Below are positions 33,576 to 37,637 of a stretch of DNA of 64,000 bases, one piece after another; the first letter of the stretch is position 1, and the number at the start of each line of letters is the position of its first letter. The position numbers were made by a program, and so were the translations under genes. Location of the stretch: contig OX638329.1 of assembly GCA_951812755.1 (NCBI GenBank), positions 3,542,522-3,606,521 of the forward strand, given 5' to 3'. Under the pieces are notes generated by a model that worked only from the letters and a program-made list of their open reading frames with translations, had not been told where the DNA came from and did not search any database. This DNA comes from an uncultured Latescibacterota bacterium. GTDB lineage: Bacteria > Latescibacterota > UBA2968.

Positions 33576-35522
33576 CTAATCCGAAAACGGAATACTATGC
33601 CCCTGCCCCGGGAACCAGATCATATCGACCACAAACGAAATACCAGCCCCCACAAAATGCCCCATAATAAGCCCGATAAAAAACGGCCGACCCGCGCGAT
33701 AGGCGCGAATACCTCCAATCCGCAAAACAATAGACTTGATTGCCCAGGCGAGAAAAATTGCAAAAATGACATTATTAACCGGATAAACCGGCCCAGCCGC
33801 AAATCCAATCGGATGCAGCGGCCACCACGCAACCCGATAGCGCAAAATCATAAAGAGCAGCGTCACCGCAGCGCCAATACCCATATACATAATGGGCAAC
33901 CACTGCACCGCAAAGGGATCTTTCGACTTTTTGACCAGATTATCCCAGGGATACCGCGCGAGACCCCCGTGGAAAATACCCCCGTAATTTGCGGCACCAT
34001 TCAAATAGCCCATATAAATCGTATAGGCAAATGTAGCCAACACACCAGCCCCCATCGCCAGAACAATGGGCAGGATCAACCGCCGCTGGTTGACTCGAAC
34101 AGTATCGTAAAGTTTGACGGAATGGGCAAGTGCAGGCATGATCGTGGTTTTGGTATCGCTGCACCAGGAATACGAAAGTGCGATAGAAACCTGCGTCTGC
34201 TGCGAAAGCACATCTGAACCCATCACAAACATGGCAAAAGGTTGCGGCATCAGGGGGGCGCGAATAGAAATCAATCCGGTCTCTGCAATAACCCGCGTAA
34301 TCCCCAGATACATGACCAGAGCACCAAAGAGAAAAATCGGAATATACTTAAACGCCATGCCCGTTGCCAAATGCCAGACGACCAGGTAGGCAGAACAGGC
34401 TATAAGGCCAAAAACCGCCGTGCGATACGAAACGATCTCATCGGAATCGTCAACCGAATCATCGCGGTAAAATGCCTTGCGAAAAACCCCGCGCAAGTGC
34501 CCGCGCGCCATCCAGAATCCCACGAGCACCACCACAATAAACGCCCCCATAGATTGCGCGCCCATCGCCAAGGGTCCTGTGGAATACTCCTCATCTGTGC
34601 CAGCTTTAAGACCAAAGCGGTTAAAAAAGCCATTTTCCAGATTGGTTAGCACATTGAACACCCATAGACTCAGTGAAATATCCAGATTGATAAAATATCC
34701 AAAGCCCACAACCATCAGATACAGCCGCACGGGAATAGGAGGAAATTCGCGCCCAAACTGAATACTCGCAAAGCGCCATGGAATCGTCGGAAAGGTCGGA
34801 CTAAAATAGGAAATGACATTCCAGAGGATAATACACAACGTGAGACTAAAGCCAGCCCAGAACAATGGGCTATTCATAATGGGAATTGGGAAAAAACCCT
34901 GCCGATTGTCCTCCTCCATCACAGCCAAAGGCATTTCCATCAACGGATAGTCAATGCGCTCGTGCTCTATCCACTGTTTTCGCAGAATAACCATTGTGAA
35001 AAGGCAGCAGCCATAAAAAGCCGCAATTACAGTCATCCACCAGAATACGGGCACAATCCACACATCCCACGGCACAGAAACCCCACGCGGCAACCCTTCA
35101 AAAAACCACCGCAAAGGTTCACCCGCGGGCAGAATAGACCATTCAGGCAAATAGGGTTCATAATAGGTCGCCCACTGATTCTCGGGCGTTGCCAGATAAT
35201 ATGGCACCGTAAAATTGGCGATCAATTTCCCGACAAAATACGTCGGCATTGTCGCGCCAATCAATGCCATAGAAAACATGACAATAAGCTCGCCCCGACT
35301 CAGCTTGAGCGGACGCAAAAGCACAAGCGCGATCACAACAATGGGAAAAACAGCAGCAACTGAAAGATGATTTTGGTCCAATCTCGTGGTATGAAGAATA
35401 AATCTCGCGTACGACCCGGCAATAGTCGCCATCACTGTGAGAAAAGTACCCAAAACGAGTGCGCGGAATGTCACGGCGGGTCTGGCAAATCCAGGAACAA
35501 CAGCTTCTCTTGCTAAAGCCAC
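33576..35522 (-). CDS. DUF6785 family polytopic membrane protein, transporter-like
   Basis: This 648-residue protein has about 13-14 membrane helices. It has the hallmarks of the DUF6784/DUF6785 family, distantly like oligopeptide transporters: FEGLPRGVSVPWDVWIVPVFWW, RKQWIEHERIDYPLMEMPLA and WGGIFHGGLARYPW-like NYGGIFHGGLARYPW. The function of the family is not established; its repeated placement beside sugar-acid enzymes fits uptake. The start is a GTG at 35520-35522 with GGGGG upstream. It is preceded by a structured leader with its own terminator and is the first gene of a run down to 29963. Confidence 0.8.
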   Translation of the reverse strand: MALAREAVVPGFARPAVTFRALVLGTFLTVMATIAGSYARFILHTTRLDQNHLSVAAVFPIVVIALVLLRPLKLSRGELIVMFSMALIGATMPTYFVGKLIANFTVPYYLATPENQWATYYEPYLPEWSILPAGEPLRWFFEGLPRGVSVPWDVWIVPVFWWMTVIAAFYGCCLFTMVILRKQWIEHERIDYPLMEMPLAVMEEDNRQGFFPIPIMNSPLFWAGFSLTLCIILWNVISYFSPTFPTIPWRFASIQFGREFPPIPVRLYLMVVGFGYFINLDISLSLWVFNVLTNLENGFFNRFGLKAGTDEEYSTGPLAMGAQSMGAFIVVVLVGFWMARGHLRGVFRKAFYRDDSVDDSDEIVSYRTAVFGLIACSAYLVVWHLATGMAFKYIPIFLFGALVMYLGITRVIAETGLISIRAPLMPQPFAMFVMGSDVLSQQTQVSIALSYSWCSDTKTTIMPALAHSVKLYDTVRVNQRRLILPIVLAMGAGVLATFAYTIYMGYLNGAANYGGIFHGGLARYPWDNLVKKSKDPFAVQWLPIMYMGIGAAVTLLFMILRYRVAWWPLHPIGFAAGPVYPVNNVIFAIFLAWAIKSIVLRIGGIRAYRAGRPFFIGLIMGHFVGAGISFVVDMIWFPGQGHSIPFSD

Positions 35523-35586
35523 TAAAAACCCCCTTCTTACCTTTCTGACCGCCTAATATAAACGCCGAATAAGGGCACTGCCACAC

Positions 35587-35649
35587 AAAAAAACGCCCTT
35601 CTCCCTATTCGGTGACCCCAACACAGGGATTCCTACTTAGGAGAAGGGC
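35587..35649 (-). terminator. Leader terminator/attenuator before the DUF6785 gene
   Basis: On the minus strand GCCCTTCTCC (35640-35649) pairs perfectly over 10 bp with GGAGAAGGGC (35595-35604), followed by G and seven T. It lies inside the leader of the gene it precedes, not after another gene on that strand close by, so it would cut the transcript before the coding region unless antiterminated. Confidence 0.75.
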
Positions 35650-35734
35650 ACATGACCTCGGGTCACCCTTGCCCGAGACCATTAAATATAATGTTTAGAA
35701 TTATACTGAGTAATACACCTCAGTGCATGCTTCG
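35595..35734 (-). ncRNA. Structured leader RNA, riboswitch-like, of unknown class
   Basis: The predicted RNA starts near 35734. It contains an ACTGAG/CTCAGT hairpin (35705-35724), a CTCGGG/CCCGAG hairpin (near 35655-35677) and then the terminator stem. GGTGACCC from the second hairpin is also complementary to GGGGTCACC inside the terminator loop (35611-35620), and CCGAATA in that loop matches TATTCGG just after the T-run. Mutually exclusive pairings of this sort are typical of riboswitches or attenuators. No known class is recognised; T-box, TPP, SAM, cobalamin, lysine, glycine and fluoride motifs do not fit. Confidence 0.5.
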
Positions 35735-35740
35735 TTGTAA

Positions 35741-35769
35741 ATATCAATATATTTATAACATTGTGTCAA
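35741..35769 (-). promoter_or_regulatory. Promoter for the DUF6785 leader
   Basis: TTGACA (35764-35769) is followed after 17 bases by TGATAT (35741-35746) on the minus strand. It lies in the gap between the 2-hydroxyacid dehydrogenase stop and the leader. A second AT-rich TATAAT occurs further down. Confidence 0.5.
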
Positions 35770-35781
35770 GAAAAAACGTAT

Positions 35782-36726
35782 TCAATATCCCTTATTTTTA
35801 TCGATCACACTCAACATATCTTCACCCTTCAAAAAACGCCGCAGGTTTTCGCAAAACAAATTCACAATGCGGTCCTGCCTATTGGGTGATCCTCCTGCAG
35901 TATGTGGTGTGATAATAACATTGGGCATGTACCACAATGGATGACTATCAGGTAATGGCTCTTGTGGCGTCACATCCAACCCCGCTCCGGCAATCTGCCT
36001 GCTTGTCAATGCCTTGACCAGAGAGGCTTCATCCATAATTTTACCCCGCGTGACATTGATCAAAAGCGCGTGATTTTGCATCTTCTCAAATGCCATGTGG
36101 TCGAAGATCCCGCGCGTTTCCTCTGTCAAGGGGCAGCAGACCACCACGACATCAGACGCGGATAAAAGATCGTAAAAACGATCCATCTTCCAGCACGTCT
36201 CTACACAGTCTGGCACATCGACATCCTCTGGATCAACAGCTATAACTTTCATGCCAAACGCCTGCGCCCGAATAGCCACATCGCATCCCGTGCCGCCCAA
36301 CCCCACAATCCCCATTGTTTTATCGATCAATTCCCACGATGCGTGGCGGATGGGCATGCGCTCATTCCAATCAGTAGTTCTAATCGCGCGCGCGATTCCG
36401 CGGGTCAATCCGAGCAAAAGAGCCATCGCGTGTTCTGACAGGTGAACACCCACAGTGCCCTTTGCACTCGTCAGAATTACCTCGCTATGGACAAACTCGG
36501 CATACATCATCCCATCGACGCCAGCACCCCAGGTCTGCACCCACTTCAGGCGTTCGGCGCGTTTGAACATATCGCGGCTCATCCCCCCAAAAATGATGTC
36601 AATTTCGGGCATAATTTCCAGCGCATCGTCACTTGAATCGGGGATGATCAGATCGATATCCTCAACCGACGATTGAATCTGTACCAGGTGGTGTTCGTCC
36701 AGGCGATCATTAATCAAAACTTTCAC
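35782..36726 (-). CDS. D-isomer-specific 2-hydroxyacid dehydrogenase
   Basis: This NAD-dependent dehydrogenase has about 314 residues. GIVGLGGTGCDVAIRAQAFG is the Rossmann motif; the catalytic Arg is in NVTRGKIMDE, Glu in DVTPQEPLPD and His in ITPHTAGGSP. It is a different branch from the 4139-5107 enzyme. The preferred start is a GTG at 36726, 5 bases after AGGAGG; an ATG at 36741 overlaps the upstream stop. It directly follows a PhyH dioxygenase gene, so it may oxidise or reduce the product of that enzyme (inference). Confidence 0.86.
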   Translation of the reverse strand: MKVLINDRLDEHHLVQIQSSVEDIDLIIPDSSDDALEIMPEIDIIFGGMSRDMFKRAERLKWVQTWGAGVDGMMYAEFVHSEVILTSAKGTVGVHLSEHAMALLLGLTRGIARAIRTTDWNERMPIRHASWELIDKTMGIVGLGGTGCDVAIRAQAFGMKVIAVDPEDVDVPDCVETCWKMDRFYDLLSASDVVVVCCPLTEETRGIFDHMAFEKMQNHALLINVTRGKIMDEASLVKALTSRQIAGAGLDVTPQEPLPDSHPLWYMPNVIITPHTAGGSPNRQDRIVNLFCENLRRFLKGEDMLSVIDKNKGY

Positions 36727-36740
36727 AACAGCCTCCTGCA

Positions 36741-37637
36741 TTAAGAGGATGCCAACTCAAATTTTTCAACTGTGGTCATGCGTTTGCGCCGATGCAACGC
36801 AACGTGTTCGGGCCAAACGCCATAGTCTCTATCAGAACCCGTTTCCCTATCCAGAAAGAGTGGGAATTCACTGGCAGCGGGCTTGGTCCTCGCATATCCG
36901 CTATTATAACTTCGCATAATAATGCGCTGCTCGCGGTTGAGCGTGGCGAGCCAATCGGGATCACACTGGTGCCGGTCAGCTTCGCAAACCCACGACGGAC
37001 AATAGGCCAAAAAGATATTCTTTCTCACAATATCCGTATTATTGGGTGCTACGCGATGCCAGGTGCTGCAATGCATCAATGTCATAGTGCCGCGTTTCGG
37101 ACAAATTACCTTTTCACCGGGAATTTCATCATGGGTATCGTAAAAATCGAAATACTGTCCCTTGTGGCTGCCGGGCATATAGACAAAATTTCCCATATCG
37201 GGATCGGGAAGATCGGTTAACCAATACGCCACTTTGATTTGTATAGGCAAAACAGGTGAAAAAACGCCATAGGGCAAAGCGCGCGCGCCATCGGGATGCC
37301 ACTTGTTGCGACTCGTATCACGAGGACGCATGAAAAATTGGGAAATATGGAGCTTTAACAATTCGCCATACACATCGTGCATAAAGCCGATATGCCGGGG
37401 GTGATCGATCAACTCGGCAAATTCGGGATACCGCTCCACAATATTGTTTGGACCAAAAAACTTCTCAGGATTGTATTTTTCACTGCGAGCAGCCGCGGCA
37501 TCGATCATCTCGATATAGCGATCGCATTCCTCGTCTGTCAACGCATCTTCAACAACGAGCATGCCATTTTCTTGAAATTCTTCCCACTGATCGCGCGTAA
37601 ACCCCGGCGGCGCAACGCGATAGTTCTGTTCTGACAT
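36741..37637 (-). CDS. Phytanoyl-CoA dioxygenase (PhyH) family protein
   Basis: This 298-residue Fe(II)/2-oxoglutarate oxygenase has HxD ligands H114 and D116 in KWHPDGARA, the distal histidine H194 in CSTWHRVAPN and the 2-oxoglutarate arginine R205 in IVRKNIFLAY. PhyH proteins hydroxylate very different small molecules; no CoA-specific feature can be seen, so the substrate is open. AAGGAG lies before the ATG. The stop overlaps the next gene's region, consistent with a two-gene unit. Confidence 0.87.
   Translation of the reverse strand: MSEQNYRVAPPGFTRDQWEEFQENGMLVVEDALTDEECDRYIEMIDAAAARSEKYNPEKFFGPNNIVERYPEFAELIDHPRHIGFMHDVYGELLKLHISQFFMRPRDTSRNKWHPDGARALPYGVFSPVLPIQIKVAYWLTDLPDPDMGNFVYMPGSHKGQYFDFYDTHDEIPGEKVICPKRGTMTLMHCSTWHRVAPNNTDIVRKNIFLAYCPSWVCEADRHQCDPDWLATLNREQRIIMRSYNSGYARTKPAASEFPLFLDRETGSDRDYGVWPEHVALHRRKRMTTVEKFELASS

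Follow-up and report, generated by a model that had tools for sequence, protein, structure and literature searches.

A conserved structured RNA ahead of a DUF6785 gene in Latescibacterota, probably a stand-alone small RNA

Does the RNA encoded in front of a DUF6785 gene in an uncultured Latescibacterota bacterium control that gene, or is it a gene of its own? The question arises from a 64,000-nucleotide stretch of contig OX638329.1 (the window), in which a preliminary description had pointed out a riboswitch-like leader that may sense the substrate of the downstream pathway. This interpretation turned out to be partly supported, and the element is confirmed to be a structured RNA.

Architecture and conservation at the window locus

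The RNA core is built of two consecutive hairpins, both predicted and covarying (Table 1), and the matches of the covariance models R1 and R2 cover 3578110-3578202 of the genome, that is 35589-35681 of the window. On the minus strand P1 reads UGGUCUCGGG-CAAGGGUGA-CCCGAGGUCA (35653-35681), CAAGGGUGA being its loop of 9 nt (35663-35671). Hairpin 2 is the terminator, which a simple terminator scan missed because its loop limit was 8 nt and the loop here is 33 nt. A small P3 sits above the inner core of this hairpin. The letters GUA/GAA preceded by an A are the signature of the bulged-G or loop-E motif, and the core of hairpin 2 may adopt such a fold. Against dinucleotide shuffles the core gives the better fold (z about -4.4, 0/200), and the entire leader gives a weaker signal than the core alone (z -2.6).

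Table 1. Features of the RNA locus and its neighbours, in window coordinates
Feature	Position	Strand	Basis or remark
RNA core (~95 nt): P1, linker, hairpin 2 (terminator), U-tract	35587-35681	minus	R1/R2 matches
P1 hairpin	35653-35681	minus	5' strand 35672-35681, 3' strand 35653-35662; fold
Hairpin 2, intrinsic terminator	35595-35649	minus	11-bp stem, 35639-35649 with 35595-35605
Hairpin 2, inner core	GUAGGA 35631-35636 and ACCGAA 35608-35613	minus	loop-E/bulged-G-like AGUA/GAA
T7 tract (terminator U-tract)	35587-35593	minus	sequence; U-tract kept in aligned homologues
TTGACA, probable -35 box of the RNA's own promoter	35764-35769	minus	promoter-like site
GATATT, candidate -10 box paired with TTGACA, spacing 18	35740-35745	minus	alignment
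TATAAT, alternative -10-like box near P1	35700-35705	minus	sequence and alignment
DUF6785 gene, candidate promoter of its own, GTGGCA-18-TATATT, after the terminator	35555-35584	minus	9/12 matches, weak
Downstream gene, DUF6785+DUF6784 membrane protein	33576-35522	minus	Pfam PF20581 1.4e-109, PF20580 3e-26
Upstream gene, D-2-hydroxyacid dehydrogenase family	35782-36741	minus	Pfam PF02826 2.6e-54

Several parts of the preliminary description were recovered. The promoter that it claimed corresponds to the TTGACA site, and its 10-bp terminator with a T7 tract before the DUF6785 gene was found again as a terminator-like hairpin with a stem one pair longer. Out of three hairpins that it described, P1 and hairpin 2 are kept in all twelve aligned close homologues, with 10/10 pairs each in P1 and the terminator stem, but the first is poorly conserved and missing in 2/12 (a small 5' hairpin, ACTGAG/CTCAGT, stands ahead of P1 on the minus strand and is weakly conserved). 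The two mutually exclusive pairings do not hold up: CCGAATA/TATTCGG is found in the window genome only, with at most 4/7 pairs in any other, and GGTGACCC/GGGTCACC has 8/8 pairs in 7/12 homologues, 7/8 in four, and 5/8 in the copy from another genus (G013). As to the -10 box, GATATT is also present in genome G008, whose next ~45 nt are missing, and TATAAT was ranked as secondary because it is missing from that genome.

A DNA search of 60 relatives placed the element ahead of the orthologous DUF6785 gene in each of the ten other genomes of the genus, 11/11 with the window, and found it in one other genus, G013, at 80% identity. Its presence before related genes, which the preliminary description had made a point of, thus extends to the whole genus and to G013, but the DUF6785 orthologues of G011, G012 and G014, which are other genera (70-79% identity), are without it in the DNA examined, which for the G014 contig is 740 nt of upstream sequence only. 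The covariation check proposed for the RNA upstream of DUF6785 genes passes within the genus and in one other genus. Among nine genomes the pairwise identity of the core is 98.1%, nearly matched by the promoter stretch (96.9%); the stretch between the two is 85.6% identical, the spacer directly after the terminator 79.4%, and the fourfold-degenerate sites of DUF6785 78.9%. Around TATATT and the Shine-Dalgarno sequence of the DUF6785 gene conservation is 90.8%. Core and promoter lie well over the fourfold-degenerate sites, which implies that both are under selection, and judged by these identities the selection on the core is purifying. A simple repeat or mobile element was rejected because there is one copy per genome throughout the window genus.

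We do not claim that the downstream DUF6785 gene is a target of the RNA. The DUF6785 family itself is greatly expanded: the window genome and most of the relatives each have at least 20 strong matches (E<=1e-80). A search of a paper library for DUF6785 found no publication. Elsewhere in the window, at 2688-2866 on the plus strand, there is a complete lysine riboswitch aptamer (Rfam RF00168, 94.7 bits).

Covariation and spread of the family

Covariance model R1 was built from seven copies and found divergent ones in G012, G020, G013 (two more) and G060. The wider model R2 added copies in G011, G012, G013, G020 and G021, together with G118 outside the phylum, and the later R3 added G175 and G312, which belong to one genus, and G064, all of them outside Latescibacterota; the Infernal E-values are rough, the calibrations having been short. 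Copies and paralogues are accordingly spread across Latescibacterota, and four genomes from other phyla have them too. The phylum of G118 excludes G175, G312 and G064, which brings the number of phyla to at least three, at least two of them besides Latescibacterota. The public titles among the members include Candidatus Latescibacterota CSMAG_2404, Latescibacteria UBA6620 and 'Gemmatimonadetes' MAG SP138.

In alignment A9 (20 copies), which leans toward the model because most copies helped build it, 96.3% of the cells pair, and changes on both sides are seen in 15/17 pairs of hairpin 2, including all eleven of the main stem. None of 500 shuffles attains any of five measures on A9, and sliding the partners abolishes the signal; in every alignment tested the observed covariation scores are attained by 0/500 shuffles. 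P1 has both-side changes in half of its ten pairs in alignment A5. The letters G-U-A-G-G-A and A-C-C-G-A-A are invariant in 19-20 of the 20 copies in A9, and the terminator stem and U-tract are present in 20/20.

A genome-wide scan for the exact pattern gave 25 matches, of which four are real, all from Latescibacterota or the marine MAG SP138, and 21 were rejected as having no stem. Carriage by phages was also rejected, all 17 pattern matches in IMG/VR being without the stem. Weak model matches (L144-L146, L148-L150, L165, L168, L170-L173) turned out to be plain terminators or coding sequence. Rfam 15 gave no match at the gathering threshold, none at E<=5 with the element alone, and none to the new RNA at 15 homologous loci (E<=1). 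This agrees with the earlier statement that no known riboswitch class is matched, and the family appears to be absent from Rfam 15 and previously undescribed. In the same paper library no publication on non-coding RNA in Latescibacteria was found.

The letters of the glutamine-I E-loop resemble AGUAGG/ACCGAA, and the two RNAs would have a loop-E motif in common. The glutamine-I (glnA) riboswitch, RF01739, is a three-way junction with the E-loop at the junction (PMC6698751), whereas here there is neither a three-way junction nor an enclosing P1, and the E-loop would lie inside a long terminator stem. The RF01739 covariance model matched neither the element (E<=5) nor any of the 15 homologous loci (E<=1).

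Subtypes, genomic sites and promoters

The copies fall into subtypes. Type A, that of the window, has the P1 loop GGGGUGA. It precedes DUF6785 in genus g1. In G013-C435 it lies at an enolase-family gene, with a sigma-factor gene that is convergent. In G012, G013 and G020 it occupies a syntenic site ahead of the gene for a zinc-ribbon protein, where the upstream neighbour is a divergent gene for a small membrane protein. The locus following this last RNA is conserved in three genera (L071 2832-9000, L072, L073) and encodes the zinc-ribbon protein, a DUF4398 lipoprotein, a YkuD-like and a PorV-like protein, and Era GTPase. At the DUF6785 locus of G013 a FliA-like sigma-factor gene (L013 1940-2665, minus strand) in the opposite orientation separates the RNA from DUF6785, and the RNA is still conserved.

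Type B carries the 5' motif GAGUGGUACCGAUUGGUC, and types B and C have the motif GUGGUACCGAUUGGUC in their 5' module. Type B lies between divergent dnaE and aroA in G011, G012, G013 and G020; in G021 it stands ahead of aroA. By eye, its motif GAGUGGUACCGAUUGG ahead of the terminator resembles the T-box motif AGGGUGGNACCGCG, but a T-box (RF00230) was rejected: there was no Rfam match, no Stem I was seen and no adjoining aminoacyl-tRNA synthetase gene was found. Type C adds a further 5' hairpin to the type B motif, and follows an uncharacterised gene (MPIFxSRF..., no Pfam) in G013, G021 and G020, with varying downstream genes; the G020 copy has a terminator without the loop core. The loop of the extra hairpin (seen in L081, in L119 and in L135 from G020 C42) holds CGGAGUGGC, and its stem shows compensatory differences between G020 and G013 (GAUG/CAUC, CAAUG/CAUUG). 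On G021 C71 (L119 ~1430-1770) two type C copies stand in tandem, separated by 163 nt; the second has lost the GUAGGA core and kept the P1 motif and the terminator.

As for the remaining copies, the one in G060 precedes an RpoD-like sigma gene, that in G118 is divergent from an FGGY kinase gene, and those in G175 and G312 stand before a gene for a collagen-like lipoprotein. The downstream genes are convergent in G064 and in G020-C41, and the latter copy lies 117 nt after a gene on the same strand. The neighbours (DUF6785, zinc ribbon/YkuD/Era, aroA, sigma factor, collagen-like lipoprotein) are thus unrelated and form no single coherent pathway.

Where the upstream neighbour is divergent, as with dnaE at the aroA-linked copies, the small membrane protein in the three genomes named above and the FGGY kinase of G118, the RNA copy would need a promoter of its own. 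The window copy has a sigma-70-like site, conserved in the genus. In 5/5 type B copies a sigma-54-type site, TGGCAY-N5-TTG, precedes the modelled start of the RNA by 22-26 nt, and in G060 such a site stands 71 nt ahead of hairpin 2; 0.003 are expected per 100 nt, a slightly high figure since the background includes the scored loci. Sigma-54 genes are present in 60/64 genomes and near-universal in the phylum. In G118 (L161, minus strand) a canonical sigma-54-type site, TGGCACACGAATTGCA, lies ~300 nt downstream of the RNA on the same strand. GlmY and GlmZ are sigma-54-dependent sRNAs, and the aroA-linked subtype is like them in having the site directly before the RNA start, but Rfam gives no match in sequence or structure and the promoter of the window copy is sigma-70-like.

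Leader or stand-alone RNA

A leader must precede the gene it controls, and four copies (G064, G020-C41, G013-C62, G013-C435) face a convergent gene. A stand-alone small RNA is the simplest reading. All four lie in draft MAGs, as most of the genomes are, and since they come from three genomes a misassembly is unlikely as a general explanation. We put at about two in three the probability that the element encodes a small structured RNA that stands alone, belongs to an undescribed family and probably acts in trans. It has its own intrinsic terminator, as such RNAs do. Speaking against this, a same-strand gene follows at a distance of 60 to 200 nt in the window genus and at 5/5 aroA loci, so a local cis effect is possible at the DUF6785 and aroA loci, and the copies per genome are few (1 in G000), unlike in many seed-pairing sRNAs. 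That such a stretch should be an ordinary terminator with chance hairpins, kept merely by close relatedness, is hardly credible; such hairpins are common, and plain ones can score weakly with the models (false positives L168 and L170), but the loop core is invariant across at least three phyla and far more conserved than neutral sites, and the compensatory changes in 11/11 stem pairs refute it.

The short distance to the next gene, 60-200 nt in the same orientation at the DUF6785, aroA and zinc-ribbon (G012, G013) loci, is what a cis-acting leader would show, a riboswitch or protein-responsive attenuator in which the E-loop hairpin and P1 would form the aptamer and a ligand or protein would decide whether the terminator forms before DUF6785 or aroA. 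The copy ahead of the sigma-factor gene in G060 and the terminator hairpin with its highly conserved, aptamer-like core are also in its favour. We nevertheless consider it unlikely, given the four convergent genes, the unrelated downstream genes, the DUF6785 orthologues that lack the element and the zinc-ribbon gene kept in G011 without it. A covarying aptamer-like structure, as in metabolite riboswitches, is present, but there is no conserved antiterminator pairing and no coherent downstream pathway, and with four convergent downstream genes the RNA does not lie in a 5' leader at essentially all loci. The upstream region is no more complementary to the 5' strand of the terminator than shuffles are (mean z -0.1, 20 copies), other partners being covered less than exhaustively; an H-type pseudoknot or antiterminator between the P1 loop and that strand, suggestive by eye in type A, was rejected as showing no excess over shuffles in the 20 copies. 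Because the same RNA adjoins unrelated genes and faces convergent ones, it does not follow that it senses the substrate of the downstream pathway, and for the family this proposal is unsupported. It is rather improbable that the element is a specialised transcript 3' end, a conserved terminator or processing element that closes upstream operons and perhaps releases a 3'-UTR-derived sRNA. Type C does follow the same MPIFxSRF... gene in G013, G020 and G021 while the downstream genes change, and the G020-C41 copy stands behind a same-strand gene, but the upstream neighbours are divergent at the aroA, LamG/zinc-ribbon and G118 loci, and the conserved promoter stretch in the window and the sigma-54-type sites of type B also speak against it.

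As a stand-alone small RNA, the element would be transcribed from its own promoter and end at hairpin 2, giving an RNA of ~100 to 160 nt depending on the promoter box used, the start being a predicted one. It would consist of two modules, a variable 5' hairpin with linker and a conserved 3' terminator hairpin with GUAGGA...ACCGAA. The 5' module (loop GGGGUGA in type A, GUGGUACCGAUUGGUC in types B and C) is likely to give target specificity, and the invariant core of the 3' hairpin may, by analogy with FinO-domain proteins, be the docking part for a shared protein. Docking of a protein on a terminator hairpin is known for ProQ/FinO (PMC12001967). Like Hfq- and ProQ-dependent trans-encoded sRNAs, this is a short intergenic RNA with an intrinsic terminator and a promoter of its own, here predicted, but its terminator hairpin has an invariant internal core and a long loop, and the chaperone is hypothetical. 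A small-molecule ligand for the hairpin-2 core is also possible. It is conceivable, and we propose it tentatively, that the terminator hairpin with GUAGGA...ACCGAA serves otherwise different sRNAs across several phyla as a portable 3' module, ending transcription and binding a protein or ligand, with subtypes that use different sigma factors and targets directed by their 5' parts.

The motif core is unusually well conserved for the inside of an intrinsic terminator, in Latescibacterota and at least two other phyla, and the alignments and covariance models presented here make the protein and ligand readings directly testable. If the shared 3' hairpin binds a small molecule, the RNA would be a trans-encoded sensor; if it binds a protein, it would offer access to an sRNA chaperone system in phyla other than the well-studied ones.
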